Shown here piece after piece: positions 26,045-31,981 of a DNA stretch of 35,829 nucleotides (position 1 is the stretch's first letter; every line of letters begins with the position of its first letter). Location: positions 1-35,829 of the forward strand of contig JAKBHH010000031.1 in assembly GCA_021836865.1 (NCBI GenBank). Direction: 5' to 3'. The notes beneath the pieces were generated by a model. That model ran no database searches and was not told where the DNA came from. It worked only from the letters and a program-made list of their open reading frames with translations. Made by a program: the position numbers and the translations under genes. Source of the DNA: Acidobacteriota bacterium (lineage in GTDB: Bacteria; Acidobacteriota; Terriglobia; Terriglobales; Acidobacteriaceae).

Positions 26045-26809
26045 TTAGATGCCTGCCTGCGCAAAAGCCTGCCAGCAGAGCTGCATGCCCATGGCCAGCA
26101 GCCAGAGTGAAAGCGCGAGCCGCATGGCGCGGGCGGGAATGCGGGAAGCAACGCTCGTGCCCGCCAGCGCGCCCAGCACGCCGCCTGCGACTAGCCTTTC
26201 CAGCAGCGCCACATCGATGCCTCCCTGGCTCAGGTGCAGCCCACCGCCTACCAGCGCAAGGCACAGCCCGAAGGCAAGATCCGTGCCTACGATGCGCGTT
26301 GTGTCCAGAGGCGTAAAGCCCATCAGCGCCAGTGTGCCCAGCGCGCCCGCGCCCGAAGACGAAAAGCCAACCTCCGCGCCCACCGGCAGCATGCTAAGGG
26401 CGAGCCAGCCAGGACGATGTGCGCGTCCCGCATGGACAGCCGCCGGACGGAAGTGCCGATAGATGTGCCACGCCGAGGGAATCGCAATCATCACGCCGAG
26501 AGCCAGGTAGAGCCAGAGCTGGTCAGCGTGGCTGCGAGCCAGGCGCCGAAAGAGCAGTGTGCCAAGAACCACACCCGGAAGTCCCGTGGCCAGCATGATG
26601 GCCAGCGTGCGCCACGCCACGTTGCGCCGTACCACTTGCACTGGCACCACCACCAGCTTGACCGCCGCCGAGTAGGCAAGCGCTGTGCCCACCGCCGCCT
26701 CTGCAGGCAGATGCAGAAGCAGGATGAGCAGCGGCGCCATCACCGTGCCCGCGCCCACGCCAGTCATGGCGATCATAGCGGCAATTAAAAAGCCAAGAAG
26801 GAAATCCAT
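26045..26809 (-). CDS. TSUP family (TauE/SafE) membrane transporter
   Basis: This 254-residue inner-membrane protein has about seven to eight TM helices in two homologous halves, beginning MDFLLGFLIAAMIAMTGVGAGTVMAPLL (split: MDFLLGFLIAAMIAMTGV, GAGTVMAPLL) with the family GxGxG-like region, and a matching GFSSSGAGALGTLALMGF in the second half. TSUP proteins move sulfite, sulfonates or other sulfur-containing organics. Its place 30 nt after cysH in the cys operon suggests uptake of sulfate or a sulfur compound, or export of excess sulfite; direction cannot be told from sequence. No other sulfate permease gene is in the window. ATG 26809. Confidence 0.85.
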   Translation of the reverse strand: MDFLLGFLIAAMIAMTGVGAGTVMAPLLILLLHLPAEAAVGTALAYSAAVKLVVVPVQVVRRNVAWRTLAIMLATGLPGVVLGTLLFRRLARSHADQLWLYLALGVMIAIPSAWHIYRHFRPAAVHAGRAHRPGWLALSMLPVGAEVGFSSSGAGALGTLALMGFTPLDTTRIVGTDLAFGLCLALVGGGLHLSQGGIDVALLERLVAGGVLGALAGTSVASRIPARAMRLALSLWLLAMGMQLCWQAFAQAGI

Positions 26810-26839: not shown

Positions 26840-27532
26840 TTACGAAGCCTGAATGTGAATGCCGCACTCGAGCTTGCGGCCGGACCAGCGCCCGGAGCGC
26901 GGATCGCTTGCGTCAAAAGGCAGACTGGTGCAGGGCGCGCATCCAATGCTGGTGTAACCCTGCTCATAGAGCGGCAGCAGCGGAATGCCGTGCGCCTCTG
27001 CATACAAGCCCACATCGCGGGTGGTCCACTCCGCCAGCGGGCTTAGCTTGGCCAGCGTTTGTCCACCTGGCAGGGTGAAGCTCTCCTCCACCTGCAGGTT
27101 GGCGCGCGACTTCGACTGCTGCCTCCGCAGCCCCGTAATCCACACGCGATAAGGAGCAAGCGAGCGAAAGAGCGGCTCCACCTTGCGCAGCGCGCAGCAG
27201 CGGTCAGGAGCGCTCTGGTGCAGAATCCCGAACTCGCTTTCCTGCTCCGCCACCGTGCGCTCCGGCAACACGTTGATCAGGTTCAATTGCCACTCGGCCG
27301 CAATGCGGTCACGGTACACGAGCGTCTCAGGAAAGTGATAGCCGGTCTCAAGAAAGAGCACGGGAACACGAGGCAGAATCTCGCGCACCATGTGCAGCAC
27401 GACCACATCTTCGGTCTGAAAACTGCTGGTGACGCAGACATCCGTCGCATGCGCCAGCCGCTCGTCAAGAAAAAGCCTTACTGTACCTGCGCGCTCTTTA
27501 ATCTCAGATGCCCAGTCCGTCGTCATTGTCAT
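26840..27532 (-). CDS. cysH: Adenylylsulfate (APS) reductase, iron-sulfur type
   Basis: This 230-residue PP-loop-related enzyme reduces APS to sulfite with electrons from thioredoxin. It carries the [4Fe-4S] cysteine set that marks APS rather than PAPS reductases: Cys-Cys in DRCCALRKVEP and Cys-x-x-Cys in GCAPCTSLPF; the catalytic Cys is in the C-terminal LECGIH. TSSFQTEDVVVLHM and LFLETGYHFPETL form the nucleotide site. Use of APS means no APS kinase is needed, which fits the decayed kinase-like tail of the neighbouring CysN. Start ATG 27532 (or ATG 27526) lies inside the 3' end of cysN, a 29-nt (or 23-nt) overlap, with GGAGAAG as the ribosome site. Confidence 0.93.
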   Translation of the reverse strand: MTMTTDWASEIKERAGTVRLFLDERLAHATDVCVTSSFQTEDVVVLHMVREILPRVPVLFLETGYHFPETLVYRDRIAAEWQLNLINVLPERTVAEQESEFGILHQSAPDRCCALRKVEPLFRSLAPYRVWITGLRRQQSKSRANLQVEESFTLPGGQTLAKLSPLAEWTTRDVGLYAEAHGIPLLPLYEQGYTSIGCAPCTSLPFDASDPRSGRWSGRKLECGIHIQAS

Positions 27533-29162
27533 CTTCTCCATTGGGAATCGCGCCGAGGCGCTGAATTTCATTGAGGATCTCGTCTGGTTCATCCAGCGCG
27601 AGCTCGTGGGGAGTGGTGCTCGCCGCATGAACCGGCGTCAGGGTGATGGGGACTGCGTCGTCGCTCTCCACCAGCAGAAACGCGCCCATGCGGGCCAGCG
27701 CAATCAGTGAGGGCGACAAGGGAACGCGCGTGCGAAGGACGACGGCGCCTGCCTCAAGCAGAGACCGCTCCAGCTGCGCGGCCAACTCTGCGCGATTGCC
27801 CAGGGCCAGCACCCCGCGCGTCGCGTGATTGATTTCGGACTCAGCATCGCCTGCGTCCGCGATGCTGCGTATCATGCCCGCACCCGCGGTGGCGTTATCT
27901 TCCGGATCAATGAGAATCAGACTGCCGGTGGCACGGCTGTCGCGATAGAGGTCTGCAAGCAGCGGACGGCTCGTTTCGATAACGACCTGCCCGATGTCGT
28001 TGAGAGCGAGCTGCTCCGCTGGATGATGCTCAAGCCGCTCGACGTGGATTCGCGAACGAATTTCGACGACCCGTGCGCGCACCGTCTGGCTCGTGTGCTT
28101 CAGCAGATAGGTCGATCCGGGACGAAGAGGCTTTGTGTGCATCCAGACTACGGTCGCCTCAAAGTGCCTGGTCCGATGCGGAGAATCGGCGGCCGATACG
28201 AGCATCTCGCCGCGGCTGACGTCCGTTTCATCTTCCAGCGTGATCACGACAGACTGCGGCGCGCGCGCTGTTTCCAGGTCACCCTCCCACGTGGTGATGG
28301 AGCGAACCCGTGTGCGAAAGCCGGATGGCAAGGCAATGATTTCATCTCCGGGCCGAACCGTCCCCGCGGTAATCTGCCCGGCAAACCCGCGGAAGTCCTG
28401 ATGCGGACGCAGCACGCGCTGCACCGGAAAGCGCAGGCCGGCATGGGAGCGCTCGATCGCCAGCGGAACAGTCTCCAGCAGTTCCATCAGGCTGGGGCCG
28501 CTGTACCAGCTCATGCGCTCACTGCGATGCACAACGTTGTCGCCATCGAGCGCGCTCACGGGAACCGCGATCAGTTCGGGGATCTCCAACTGCCGGGCAA
28601 GATCGAGCAGCGAGCGGCGATGGTCGTCGAAGACCGTCTGCGAAAAACCTACAAGGTCCATCTTGTTGACGGCGGCAATTACGACCGGAATTCCCAGCAG
28701 CGCGGCGATGCAGGCGTGACGCCGCGTCTGGTCAAGGATGCCCTTGCGCGCGTCCACAAGCACAATGGCAACGTCTGCCGTGGATGCGCCGGTGGCCATG
28801 TTGCGCGTGTACTGCTCGTGGCCCGGAGTGTCGGCGATGATGAATTTGCGCTTCGGCGTAGAGAAGAATCGGTACGCCACGTCGATGGTGATTCCCTGCT
28901 CTCGCTCCGCGCGAAGACCGTCTGTGAGTTGCGCGAAATCAATAGCGGCGTTGTGCGTCACGGCGCGCACGTGGTCGTCGTAGACATTGCGCGAGTCGTA
29001 GAGCAGGCGGCCAATCAGCGTAGACTTGCCGTCATCCACGCTGCCCGCCGTGCTGAAACGCAACAGGTCTTTCGCGCGCTCGGCGGCAAGCTGCTCTTCA
29101 ATGCGCACATCCGCATCATCCCGCTCAAGAACGGCGGTCATGTTGTCATTCGCTTCCGACAT
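27504..29162 (-). CDS. cysN: Sulfate adenylyltransferase GTPase subunit CysN, with vestigial kinase-like tail
   Basis: CysN is the elongation-factor-like GTPase that drives CysD-catalysed formation of APS from sulfate and ATP. G1 is GSVDDGKST (40-48), G3 DTPGH (111-115), G4 NKMD; beta-barrel domains follow and the core ends with ATAGAGMI near residue 431. A further 121 residues remain. Residues about 446-505 resemble an APS kinase (CysC) with its core destroyed: GVLALGNRAELAAQLERSLLEAGAVVL lines up with the kinase P-loop helix (given in two parts: GVLALGNRAELAA, QLERSLLEAGAVVL), but GxxGxGKST is replaced by LGNRAEL; LIALARMGAFLLVES resembles the later strand. The acidic end GEDDNDDGLGI overlaps cysH. 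ATG 29162 overlaps the cysD stop by one base (TGATG). Confidence 0.93.
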   Translation of the reverse strand: MSEANDNMTAVLERDDADVRIEEQLAAERAKDLLRFSTAGSVDDGKSTLIGRLLYDSRNVYDDHVRAVTHNAAIDFAQLTDGLRAEREQGITIDVAYRFFSTPKRKFIIADTPGHEQYTRNMATGASTADVAIVLVDARKGILDQTRRHACIAALLGIPVVIAAVNKMDLVGFSQTVFDDHRRSLLDLARQLEIPELIAVPVSALDGDNVVHRSERMSWYSGPSLMELLETVPLAIERSHAGLRFPVQRVLRPHQDFRGFAGQITAGTVRPGDEIIALPSGFRTRVRSITTWEGDLETARAPQSVVITLEDETDVSRGEMLVSAADSPHRTRHFEATVVWMHTKPLRPGSTYLLKHTSQTVRARVVEIRSRIHVERLEHHPAEQLALNDIGQVVIETSRPLLADLYRDSRATGSLILIDPEDNATAGAGMIRSIADAGDAESEINHATRGVLALGNRAELAAQLERSLLEAGAVVLRTRVPLSPSLIALARMGAFLLVESDDAVPITLTPVHAASTTPHELALDEPDEILNEIQRLGAIPNGEDDNDDGLGI

Positions 29163-30151
29163 CAGAAGTAGCCCTCGCGTTTCTTCAGTTCCATGGAACC
29201 GTCCTGGTCGTGGTCGATAATGCGATTGGCGCGCTCGGAATTTCGCATCTGCACCAGCTCGGCAATAATCTTTGGCACCGTGTCTGCGTCGGAGCGGATG
29301 GCTCCCGTGCAGGGGCTGCAACCGAGCGAGCGCAGGCGGCACTTCACCCATTGCTCTTCGCCCGGAAGGCCCTTCACAAAAGGCTGCTCCACGGGGATCA
29401 GGCTGTCGGCGCGCACCAGCATGCGGCGCTCCTTCGCCAGATACAGCGGCACAATCGGAATCTTCTCCAGATGGATGTAGTGCCAGATGTCCAGCTCGGT
29501 CCAGTTGGAAAGCGGGAAGACGCGGATGCTCTCGCGCGGGCCGATGCGTCCGTTGAACAGGTTCCACAACTCCGGACGCTGATTCTTCGGGTCCCACTGC
29601 CCCGCGCTGTCGCGGAATGAGAAGATGCGCTCTTTCGCACGCGACTTTTCTTCATCGCGTCGTGCGCCGCCAAAGGCCGCGTCAAATCCGTGTGCGCGCA
29701 ACCCGTCCAGCAGCGCCTGCGTCTTCAGCAGCCCGCAGCAACGCTGCGTTCCCAGTTGCACCGGGTTCGCGCCCTGCGCCAGGGCCTCTTCATTGCGCCA
29801 CACCAGCAGCTTGACTCCCAGCTCGGCCGTGTAGCGATCGCGGAATTCGATCATCTCGCGAAACTTGTAGCCCGTGTCGACATGCAGCAGCGGAAACGGA
29901 ATCGGCGCGGGATGAAAGGCCTTCTGCGCCAGGCGCAACATCACCGACGAGTCCTTGCCGATGGAGTAGAGCATCACCGGCTTTTGAAACTCCGCCGCCA
30001 CCTCGCGCATGATGTGAATGCTCTCTGCCTCAAGCAGCTGGATGTGGTTGAGCCGCTGCTCTGCCGCGGCGCGGCTTTGGCCCGGCCCGCCGCTGTGCCC
30101 TGAGTTCAGTTCCTGTGCCAGCCCCGTGGGCTCGCTTGCGATCGCTGTCAT
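29162..30151 (-). CDS. cysD: Sulfate adenylyltransferase subunit 2 CysD
   Basis: CysD is the catalytic ATP sulfurylase subunit, making APS and pyrophosphate from sulfate and ATP. The 329-residue protein has the PP-loop SIGKDSS (63-69), [49 protein letters not shown] and [10 protein letters not shown], all typical, ending KKREGYF. The N-terminal 30 residues are a polar extension. GGAGAG lies 5 nt before ATG 30151. It is the first structural gene of cysD-cysN-cysH-TSUP and is preceded by the poly-Cys leader ORF and attenuator-type terminator at 30181-30324. Confidence 0.96.
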
Positions 30152-30180
30152 GCAATCTCTCCGTTTGGATTTTCGAAGGG

Positions 30181-30226
30181 GAAAAAGAAAAAGCCCGCGT
30201 CGGCAGGTGGCCTGCGGCGCGGGCTT
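30181..30226 (-). terminator. Attenuator-type intrinsic terminator in the cysD leader
   Basis: On the minus strand AAGCCCGCG (30226-30218) pairs with CGCGGGCTT (30199-30191); inside, GCAGG pairs with CCTGC around a CCA loop. The 3' arm runs into TTTCTTTTTC (30190-30181). It lies within the leader, after the promoter at 30331-30359 and about 30 nt before the cysD ATG, so it would stop transcription before the operon unless prevented. Confidence 0.88.
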
Positions 30227-30228
30227 AT

Positions 30229-30263
30229 TGGGATAGGTCTGAGTCTAAAGCTGTCTTATCCCA
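30229..30263 (-). promoter_or_regulatory. Pre-terminator hairpin and competing pairings in the cys leader
   Basis: TGGGATA (30263-30257), which includes the last codon and most of the stop of the leader ORF, pairs with TATCCCA (30235-30229). The segment 30246-30229 has other perfect partners inside the leader ORF: AGACTCA (30246-30240) with TGAGTCT (30323-30317), and CAGACC (30241-30236) with GGTCTG (30304-30299), the latter ending in the first Cys codon of the first run. These exclude each other, and a ribosome paused on the Cys codons would block the upstream ones. A clean antiterminator pairing with the terminator 5' arm is not obvious by eye. Confidence 0.6.
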
Positions 30264-30324
30264 CAATCCGGCGCGGCACGCAACAACACGCGCAACAACA
30301 GACCGGTGTGAGACAAAGACTCAT
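30256..30324 (-). CDS. Poly-cysteine leader peptide of the cys operon
   Basis: This is a 22-codon ORF with seven Cys codons (residues 4, 9-11 and 13-15), including the tract CCCACCC, followed by VPRRIVG and TAA. At the usual Cys frequency near 1 percent this is not expected by chance. The Cys codons are a mix of TGT and TGC. ATG 30324 is where the promoter at 30331-30359 should start transcription, so the mRNA is predicted leaderless; GAGG two bases before ATG is too close to serve as a ribosome site. It precedes a terminator and then cysD, the first gene of cysteine synthesis. By analogy with amino-acid attenuators and with leaderless poly-Cys leader ORFs reported in actinobacteria, it should sense Cys-tRNA supply by ribosome stalling. 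The peptide itself probably has no function. Confidence 0.85.
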   Translation of the reverse strand: MSLCLTPVCCCACCCVPRRIVG

Positions 30325-30358
30325 GACCTCACTATATCGGCACTTGAGTGTGAGGTCA
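30324..30358. promoter_or_regulatory. Operator-like inverted repeat over the cys promoter
   Basis: TGACCTCAC (30324-30332) and GTGAGGTCA (30350-30358) are perfect 9-bp inverted arms separated by 17 bp. They cover the -35 and part of the -10 box on the minus strand, and the last base is the A of the leader-peptide ATG. A protein bound here should block transcription of the cys operon. The regulator is not in the window as far as I can tell. Confidence 0.7.
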
Positions 30359-30359
30359 A
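30331..30359 (-). promoter_or_regulatory. Promoter of the cysDNH operon
   Basis: TTGACC (30359-30354), exactly 17 bp, TATAGT (30336-30331). This is the best sigma70-type promoter in the window. The expected start is 30325-30323, on the leader ATG. Confidence 0.8.
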
Positions 30360-30452
30360 CCGTCTCTTTTAGCCCGCGCGCGCCGCGCAGAGCTCCGGCC
30401 AAGACCCGCAGAAGTTTCGCAATCCTCCGCTGCTACAATCGAAATGGCCGCA

Positions 30453-30488
30453 ATGTGCACTCTTTCAGTTGCTTGCAGCATCGTATAG
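30453..30488 (+). CDS. Possible 11-residue upstream ORF before cysS
   Basis: ATG 30453 to TAG 30488 encodes MCTLSVACSIV with Cys at 2 and 8. It lies 13 nt after a TACAAT box (30434-30439) and 14 nt before the cysS ATG, in another frame. No terminator hairpin follows. It may be chance, but Cys codons just before the cysteinyl-tRNA synthetase gene are suggestive. Confidence 0.3.
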   Translation: MCTLSVACSIV

Positions 30489-30502
30489 TCAGGCTAGAAA
30501 CC

Positions 30503-31981
30503 ATGAACCTCCACCTCTTCAACACCCTTTCGGGACAGATGGAAGAGCTCGTCCCGATGGATGGGCAGACACTGCGCATGTACGCCTGCGGCCCCACGGT
30601 CTACGACTACGGCCACATCGGCAACTTCCGCACCTTTCTCCAGGTGGATGTGCTGCGGCGCTTTCTCAAGCTGACCGGTATGAAGCTGCGCCACGTCATG
30701 AACATCACCGACGTAGACGACAAGATCATCCGCAACGCCGCTGCCGCCGGCATCGCGATCGGCGAGTACACGCCGCGCTATGTCGATGCGTTCTTTGAAG
30801 ACCTTGACGCCCTGCGCGTGGAGCGGCCTGAAGCAATTGCGCGCGCCACTGAAAACATCGACCGCATGGTGGAGCTGATACAGAAGCTGGCCGCGGTGGG
30901 CGCTGCCTATCAGACCGATGACGGGAGCTGGTACTTCCGCCTTTCCGCATTTCCTGCCTACGGCAAGCTGAGCAAGAAGGACTTGAGCGGCATGGAAGAC
31001 GGCGCGCGCGTGGACGTGGACGAGTACGAGAAGGATTCGGCCCGCGACTTTGCACTGTGGAAGGCTGCCAGGCCCGGCGAAACCGCGTGGGATACCATGA
31101 TCGGCCGCGGAAGGCCCGGCTGGCACATCGAGTGCTCCGCCATGTCCATGGCCTATCTGGGCGACAGCTTTGACCTGCACGCCGGCGGCGAAGACTTGAT
31201 GTTCCCGCACCATGAGAACGAGATCGCGCAAAGCGAAACCGTCACGCACAAGCCGCTCGCGCGCCATTGGATGCACGTTCGCTTCCTTCTCGTCGACGGA
31301 CGCAAGATGGCCAAGAGCGAGGGCAACTTCTACACCCTGCGCGATCTGCTGCTGAAGGGATACAAGGCCTCGGCAATTCGCCTCGCGCTGATCTCGGTTC
31401 CCTACCGGCACCAGCTCAACTTCACCTTCGATGGCCTCATTGAGGCCACCAACGCCATCGACCGGCTGCGGACCTTTTACGCGCGGCTCACACAAGGAAC
31501 CTTCGCAGCCGGAGAAAATCCCGCGATGCAGTCTGCGGCAAAGAAAGCGCAGACCGAATTCATGGCCGCGCTGGCCAATGACCTGAACACCGCCGAAGCC
31601 CGCGCGCCGATCTTCGACCTCGTTCGCGCGGCCAATGCGGCCATGGACCAGGGAAAGTTATTCACCGGCGACCGCGACGAGATCCTACCTGTGCTGAAGG
31701 ACTTCGACGCAGTCTTCGACGTAATCGAGGACCGCGACGCCGAGCCCACCCGCCACGCCATCGCGTGGGCGCAGCAGGCCGGCAGAACCGCCGACGTCGC
31801 ACCGGAGCTCCTCGCCCGTCAGTCGCTCACGGACGACGCGATTGAAAAGCTGGTCACCGAGCGCACCGTTGCCAAAAAGCAGCGCAACTTCGCCCGCGCC
31901 GACCAGATCCGCAACGAGCTGGCGGAAAAGGGCGTCATCCTTGAAGACTCCAAAGACGGCGTGCGCTGGAAGCGCAAGTAA
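30503..31981 (+). CDS. cysS: Cysteinyl-tRNA synthetase
   Basis: This class I synthetase charges tRNA-Cys. The 492-residue protein has all landmarks: zinc ligands Cys29, Cys211, His236 and Glu240, the HIGH-type YGHIGN (36-41), NITDVDDKIIR, GWHIECSAMS, AGGEDLMFPHHENEIAQSE, split as AGGEDLMFPHH and ENEIAQSE, and KMAKS (268-272) for KMSKS. The C-terminal tRNA-binding domain includes RNFARADQIRNELAEKGVILED, split as RNFARADQIR and NELAEKGVILED. ATG 30503 is the family start, with only a weak AGG upstream; TATAGT (30484-30489) could be a -10 box giving a very short leader. It is divergent from the cysteine biosynthesis operon and shares its regulatory region, so both could respond to cysteine. Confidence 0.97.
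   Translation: MNLHLFNTLSGQMEELVPMDGQTLRMYACGPTVYDYGHIGNFRTFLQVDVLRRFLKLTGMKLRHVMNITDVDDKIIRNAAAAGIAIGEYTPRYVDAFFEDLDALRVERPEAIARATENIDRMVELIQKLAAVGAAYQTDDGSWYFRLSAFPAYGKLSKKDLSGMEDGARVDVDEYEKDSARDFALWKAARPGETAWDTMIGRGRPGWHIECSAMSMAYLGDSFDLHAGGEDLMFPHHENEIAQSETVTHKPLARHWMHVRFLLVDGRKMAKSEGNFYTLRDLLLKGYKASAIRLALISVPYRHQLNFTFDGLIEATNAIDRLRTFYARLTQGTFAAGENPAMQSAAKKAQTEFMAALANDLNTAEARAPIFDLVRAANAAMDQGKLFTGDRDEILPVLKDFDAVFDVIEDRDAEPTRHAIAWAQQAGRTADVAPELLARQSLTDDAIEKLVTERTVAKKQRNFARADQIRNELAEKGVILEDSKDGVRWKRK

Follow-up and report, generated by a model that had tools for sequence, protein, structure and literature searches.

What does a short, cysteine-rich open reading frame (ORF) do immediately upstream of the sulfate assimilation genes of an acidobacterium? 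The window, by which we mean the whole 35,829-nt stretch of DNA analysed here, carries such an ORF before cysD. An earlier note on this DNA had proposed that low Cys-tRNA stalls ribosomes on its CCCACCC run and lets transcription read into cysDNH. We conclude that the leader very probably attenuates transcription of the cysD-cysN-cysH operon, sensing cysteine through the translating ribosome.

Anatomy of the cysD leader

The elements of the leader, and the genes that follow it, are as follows.

30354–30359, minus strand: -35 element TTGACC, with a 17-nt spacer to the -10 element
30331–30336, minus strand: -10 element TATAGT; the leader ATG lies 6 nt further on
30256–30324, minus strand: leader ORF MSLCLTPVCCCACCCVPRRIVG, probably leaderless, conserved in relatives
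30302–30323, minus strand: segment 1, the ORF start; predicted by folding to partner segment 2 in the untranslated fold
30257–30281, minus strand: segment 2, the last codons of the ORF; predicted 5' strand of the antiterminator (folding; pairing weakened by synonymous recoding)
30210–30235, minus strand: segment 3, the post-stop RNA and terminator 5' arm; predicted 3' strand of the antiterminator (folding)
30191–30226, minus strand: terminator hairpin (segments 3:4), -25.5 kcal/mol
30182–30192, minus strand: U tract UUUUUCUUUUU, 30 nt upstream of the cysD ATG (30151)
30157–30163, minus strand: Shine-Dalgarno-like CGGAGAG of cysD, from the sequence
29162–30151, minus strand: cysD, sulfate adenylyltransferase subunit (NF009214, 451.5 bits, cut-off 413)
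27504–29162, minus strand: cysN (NF003478, 594.7 bits, cut-off 590; start assumed to be the ATG overlapping the cysD stop)
26840–27628, minus strand: cysH, phosphoadenylyl-sulfate reductase (NF002537, 231.4 bits, cut-off 154; start unsure)

MSLCLTPVCCCACCCVPRRIVG comprises 22 codons followed by TAA (30258–30256), with Cys at codons 4, 9–11 and 13–15. In the window, no other ORF of 8–40 amino acids beginning with ATG or GTG reaches four Cys per eight codons. The earlier note had described this ORF and its seven Cys codons, and all are present on the minus strand. The promoter that it had named, TTGACC-N17-TATAGT, was found at 30359–30331, 6 nt from the ATG, and its GC-rich terminator with a U tract about 30 nt before cysD corresponds to the hairpin at 30226–30191. 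It was also right about the genes downstream: the identities of CysD, CysN and CysH, as well as CysS, exceed the NCBIfam cut-offs.

The cysteine–tRNA ligase gene cysS diverges from the leader promoter, and the intergenic region (30325–30503) is common to the charging enzyme and the putative sensor. A 254-residue ORF 3' of cysH (26045–26809, minus strand) had no NCBIfam match. Among the 80 CysD relatives kept, the closest named one was from Granulicella sp. dw_53 (85% identity), and the 19 best named ones all carried Acidobacteriota names; our assignment of the window to this phylum is based on them.

Conservation of the leader upstream of cysD

CysD was present in 69/99 relatives and, among genomes sampled from the class, in 174/299. 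From the latter we used 26 loci that were new, together with 59 of 60 retrieved ones (L245 was too short). The closest leaders, ten including that of the window (L002–L010 and L173), form clade 1. Promoter, Cys run and terminator are kept in all ten; TTGACC lies 16–17 nt from the -10 element and the ATG 6–8 nt past it in 9/9 leaders tabulated, and the tenth is alike. A sister set, clade 2 (36 leaders aligned), encodes peptides such as MVCASQSRSCCCLSNIFDGCPR.

We then searched the 400 nt preceding each CysD match for ORFs no longer than 40 codons that contain at least three (or at least four) Cys per eight codons. With these cut-offs, which were chosen with the data already in view and applied to related, hence non-independent, genomes, a Cys ORF was found at 47/51 loci from other genera of the family (36 with at least four Cys), at 32/46 from the window genus (15), at 6/8 from family f7 (4) and at 2/29 from family f6 (0). 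Shuffled sequences gave 4.6–11.8% (0.07–1.05% for at least four Cys), the figure to set beside 47/51 being 12%, and reverse complements gave 5 (3), 1 (0), 0 (0) and 1 (0) loci, respectively. The figure for the genus is lowered by the many clade-2 leaders in which only two Cys codons are adjacent and a third follows further on. These counts were grouped by hand and exclude second cysD copies and incomplete contigs (L014, L048, L051, L052, L060, L062, L063 and L071), L042, loci with less than 400 nt upstream, and families other than f1, f6 and f7 (L054–L059, L064–L068 and L070). The second cysD copies in six genomes of the genus (L014, L048, L051, L060, L062 and L063) had no such leader. Among named loci, 8/26 from Acidobacteriota reached four Cys compared with 1/47 from other phyla; shuffles reached it in 0.6% and 0.9%, respectively, and reverse complements of the Acidobacteriota loci in 1/26.

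The earlier note had made its reading depend on conservation of the Cys codons and terminator in relatives, and a search for short Cys-rich ORFs plus terminators upstream of cysD bears it out: both elements are kept throughout clade 1, and the ORF recurs widely in the other genera. Judged on sequence, the Cys-rich leader ORF is not due to chance, since it is the only such ORF in the window and the motif occurs upstream of the relatives' cysD well above shuffles. Codon choice in 47 cysD leaders was 166 UGU to 50 UGC, compared with 0 UGU to 17 UGC in four window genes, the leaders being related to each other and the gene sample small.

A probable start at or near the AUG

A TANNNT or TGNNNT motif lies 4–12 nt upstream of the ATG in 84/98 leaders, and Shine-Dalgarno-like motifs precede only 5/98 leader ATGs. 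The TANNNT gap peaks at 10 nt (42 leaders) and 7 nt (17 leaders), with at most three leaders per position at 13–44 nt. With 10-nt gaps, transcription could start a few nucleotides 5' of the ATG, and the leaders are therefore fairly described as leaderless or almost leaderless. For the window, promoter spacing suggests that the leader ORF is probably leaderless. Leaderless genes were predicted to make up a mean of 13.3% in three Acidobacteria genomes, according to passages of PMC3160421.

Folding of the leader RNA around a ribosome

The alternative pairings were examined in silico. In nascent folds, where the RNA ends before the terminator 3' arm and a ribosome footprint is placed at each codon, an A site at the first or second Cys codon of the run gave ~13–20 pairs between segments 2 and 3 in 10/10 clade-1 leaders, and a ribosome at the stop codon gave at most 3.2. 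For the window, the 2:3 pairs numbered ~20 at Cys9–11 and 14.9 at Cys13, with none at Cys14 or Cys15. Thus the proposed stall on CCCACCC is consistent with the anatomy, the comparison with relatives and the nascent folds up to codon 13, and the part that concerns Cys14 and Cys15 did not hold in these folds, as stalls there gave no antiterminator. Stalls at codons 2–8 likewise gave the antiterminator; specificity would therefore rest on Cys being the dense codon. Without a ribosome, 1:2 pairing dominated in 4/10 clade-1 leaders (the window and three others).

Folding at equilibrium gave a different picture for the window, where the terminator stayed at ~0.92–0.95 at every ribosome position and no switch was seen. 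Of the eight leaders run in this way, five fell below 0.5 at some early position, while the window, L005 and L009 stayed above. The comparison of folds with and without a ribosome that the earlier note had called for is therefore divided: stalls at the start of the Cys run give an antiterminator in the nascent folds of all ten clade-1 leaders, and the window is unchanged at equilibrium. As the window terminator is stable at equilibrium, antitermination would have to be kinetic, with 2:3 pairing established before segment 4 exists.

We next recoded the last seven codons synonymously according to local codon usage, with 2000 draws per leader. The draws that paired equally well numbered 42 (L002), 36 (L003), 3 (L004), 7 (L005), 34 (L006), 130 (L007), 10 (L008), 161 (L009), 5 (L010) and 25 (L173). 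That so few synonymous recodings pair equally well suggests, within this folding model, that the clade-1 ORF tail is kept for RNA pairing. Against the model, shuffles of the spacer alone often paired equally well, in 16, 8, 94, 164, 136, 33, 9, 12, 69 and 12 of 500 cases for the ten leaders. When segments were swapped among clade-1 leaders, own pairs were only modestly better (-25.0 compared with -22.9 kcal/mol). Total upstream pairing to the terminator arm differed little in clade 1 (11.5 pairs on stall, 10.3 at stop; stall more than three higher in 2/10). Among the other terminator-type leaders, stall exceeded stop by more than three pairs to the arm in 15/23 (means 11.1 and 6.7; shuffled 7.8).

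In the mechanism we propose, whose start site, ORF translation, kinetic order and cysteine response we infer, the RNA would begin at or next to the AUG, and a ribosome would load on the leaderless ORF as the RNA emerges. When Cys-tRNA is ample, the ribosome would reach the stop codon and cover segment 2, allowing the 3:4 terminator to form and transcription to stop upstream of cysD. When it is scarce, the ribosome would stall on Cys codons 9–13 and block 1:2 pairing, leaving segment 2 free; 2:3 would then form ahead of the synthesis of segment 4, and the polymerase would read through into cysDNH.

A similar leader before sulfite reductase

On another contig of the same genome (C23), a leader MQALSCCRLCMPPRAHR (L258:160–213) is followed by a GC hairpin and UUUCUAUUUUU, a candidate second device within L258:160–300. 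Downstream, a gene for sulfite reductase (PF01077, PF03460) is accompanied by a siroheme synthase-like one; the -10 element is less clear than that before cysD. Sulfite reductase matches were found in 53 genomes, and the best 30 loci, all from the genus, were compared. By the criterion used for cysD, 29 of them had a Cys ORF within 300 nt (shuffles, 6.5%; reverse complements, 4/30); 24 had a terminator, and 22 had TANNNT 4–12 nt upstream of the ATG.

Six of these leaders were folded. A stall at the Cys pair gave a hairpin of -23.5 to -33.5 kcal/mol that included the terminator arm, and a ribosome at the stop codon gave -7.9 to -17.1 kcal/mol. Pairs to the arm alone were 6.7–9.9 on stall and 2.8–9.7 at stop, with a clear difference only in some leaders; for the genome's own leader they were 8.5 and 9.7. 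The genome appears to apply a similar device to sulfite reductase.

Other parts of the genome were also scanned. A search for CC.CC codon patterns was uninformative (47 matches, compared with 23 in a reversed control), and a search with PF00916 (sulfate permease) gave no match. Six PALP loci yielded a single upstream Cys ORF, at the cysK-like L296 of this genome; it is weak, with three Cys codons (MSLTPFRCLPRCSC...), and may be chance.

A sister clade without the terminator

The cysD leaders of the window's CysD clade are followed by a terminator, as are 5/5 of those scanned from f7 and those of several named Acidobacteriota that lie deeper. The terminator is absent from clade 2, where the cysD leaders scanned had no terminator with a U tract, and from some other lineages scanned. 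On a CysD tree of 85 rows, built by a quick method with 36/81 inner branches weakly supported, the presence or absence of the terminator required three changes, or perhaps two, as L177 was scored without a terminator despite a visible hairpin followed by CUUGUUGU and may hold a missed one. In this tree L099 was omitted (short); two labels were changed to none, that of L012 (previously terminator) and that of L100 (previously leader).

The clade-2 leaders nevertheless showed alternative folds. Over 36 leaders, the stall and stop values were 0.75 and 0.02 for helix P2, 0.11 and 0.51 for P3, and 0.65 and 0.35 for P4; for both states, 93% of cells were paired, compared with 35–56% when slid. A stall would let ACGGGUGU pair with GCACCCGU, so that hairpin P4 forms, and with P4 in place the strand able to mask the cysD Shine-Dalgarno sequence would be kept away. 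The helix that would do the masking was weak (0.10 on stall, 0.16 at stop), and Shine-Dalgarno accessibility was higher on stall in 21/35 leaders (means 0.34 and 0.29). Covariation across the 36 leaders gave no signal above shuffles, because the leaders are too conserved within the genus. The output in clade 2 may be translation control or Rho. One genome has a second clade-2-like leader (L261:254–377, contig C177 of G020), whose downstream gene is porin-like (Alginate_exp, PF13372) rather than cysD.

Four genomes with clade-2 cysD leaders (G003, G004, G010 and G011) carry terminator-type sulfite reductase leaders, which would place both output types in one cell. We give roughly even chances to a broader reading, in which the Acidobacteriota would have a cysteine-attenuation regulon of cysDN and sulfite reductase. 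Its sensor, a leaderless poly-Cys ORF, would stay fixed and its output module could be exchanged, being intrinsic termination in some lineages and translation initiation or Rho in the sister CysD clade.

Alternative explanations

Could the window leader work in another way? It might sense cysteine and act chiefly via translation initiation or Rho, which is the leading idea for clade 2, where the 36 leaders lack a U-tract terminator yet show an alternative switch. For the window we consider this unlikely, given its strong hairpin and U tract; even in clade 2 the masking helix is weak, the gain in accessibility uneven and the covariation no better than in shuffles. Less likely again is that the product of the ORF is itself functional, as a small Cys-rich protein that might bind metal, for example, with the terminator merely tuning cysD. 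Its Cys residues are indeed dense and their positions are kept within clades, but the other residues differ freely between clades, and RNA pairing seems to be what preserves the clade-1 tail. Moreover, such ORFs were sought upstream of two cysteine-pathway genes, the only classes searched, and found at both.

A terminator and competing folds before a biosynthetic operon would also suit a riboswitch or T-box-like RNA that contains the ORF by accident. This is the least probable of the three and very improbable in itself, as Rfam covariance models gave 0 matches in the window at gathering scores and the Cys codons recur in leaders of strongly different sequence. Ribosome-mediated attenuation by termination thus remains the reading we prefer.

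Relation to known attenuators

In the trp-type attenuators of Proteobacteria, the regulatory codons lie between segments 1 and 2, segments 2:3 form the antiterminator and segments 3:4 the terminator. The window leader is similar in having an ORF rich in codons for the end product (7 Cys in 22), an intrinsic terminator before the first gene, and an antiterminator that forms on a stall at the regulatory codons and is absent at the stop (in nascent folds, 10/10; the equilibrium folds being negative for the window). It differs in its probably leaderless start, in cysteine as the signal and in its host, one of the Acidobacteriota.

Cysteine-codon attenuation is already known in mycobacteria and Rhodobacterales. 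In mycobacteria, leaderless polycysteine short ORFs before cysteine genes reportedly attenuate when cysteine is supplied or withheld, that being the signal (Canestrari et al. 2020, as cited in passages of PMC9031893, PMC9094748 and PMC13236596). The window ORF resembles these in being short, with contiguous Cys codons, before cysteine genes. As far as descriptions can be compared, the mycobacterial type is translation control according to the citing passages, whereas the window has an intrinsic terminator with a U tract and belongs to another phylum. Candidate cys leaders of Actinobacteria, described in passages of PMC1262725, likewise place a short ORF with consecutive Cys codons ahead of cys operons; no conserved terminator hairpins were found for them, with Rho suggested, and the window clade has such hairpins. 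Another likeness is uORFC-8-2 of Rhodobacterales, for which passages of PMC8632094 report tandem Cys codons in a uORF, stems and an intrinsic terminator, as in the window leader. However, uORFC-8-2 lies upstream of cysS and controls it, and in the window cysS is divergent, with cysD downstream, and the phylum is another; nor do those passages describe its start as leaderless, as that of the window ORF probably is.

The earlier note knew of no description from such a lineage, and our literature search agrees: among titles, abstract beginnings and passages, with subscription papers mostly outside its reach, no report of cysteine attenuation from Acidobacteriota was found. Leader genes in Acidobacteria are treated in general, without "cys", in passages of PMC4833913, and in 2010 almost no predicted Acidobacteriota attenuator had an assigned function, according to passages of PMC2965389. 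As far as searched, therefore, what is new is the phylum, the two-operon regulon and the sister clade with a Cys ORF but without a terminator.

Implications

What stands out in these findings is the regulon of two operons, together with an output that apparently changed between sister clades. The cysD leaders would offer a case of attenuation starting from a probably leaderless ORF. Taken together they make up a natural series, with a single sensor apparently joined to different outputs, so that shifts of an attenuator between transcriptional and other control become testable with simple reporters. For the Acidobacteriota, the leader would supply a specific mechanism of sensing an amino acid, along with a predicted cysteine regulon.
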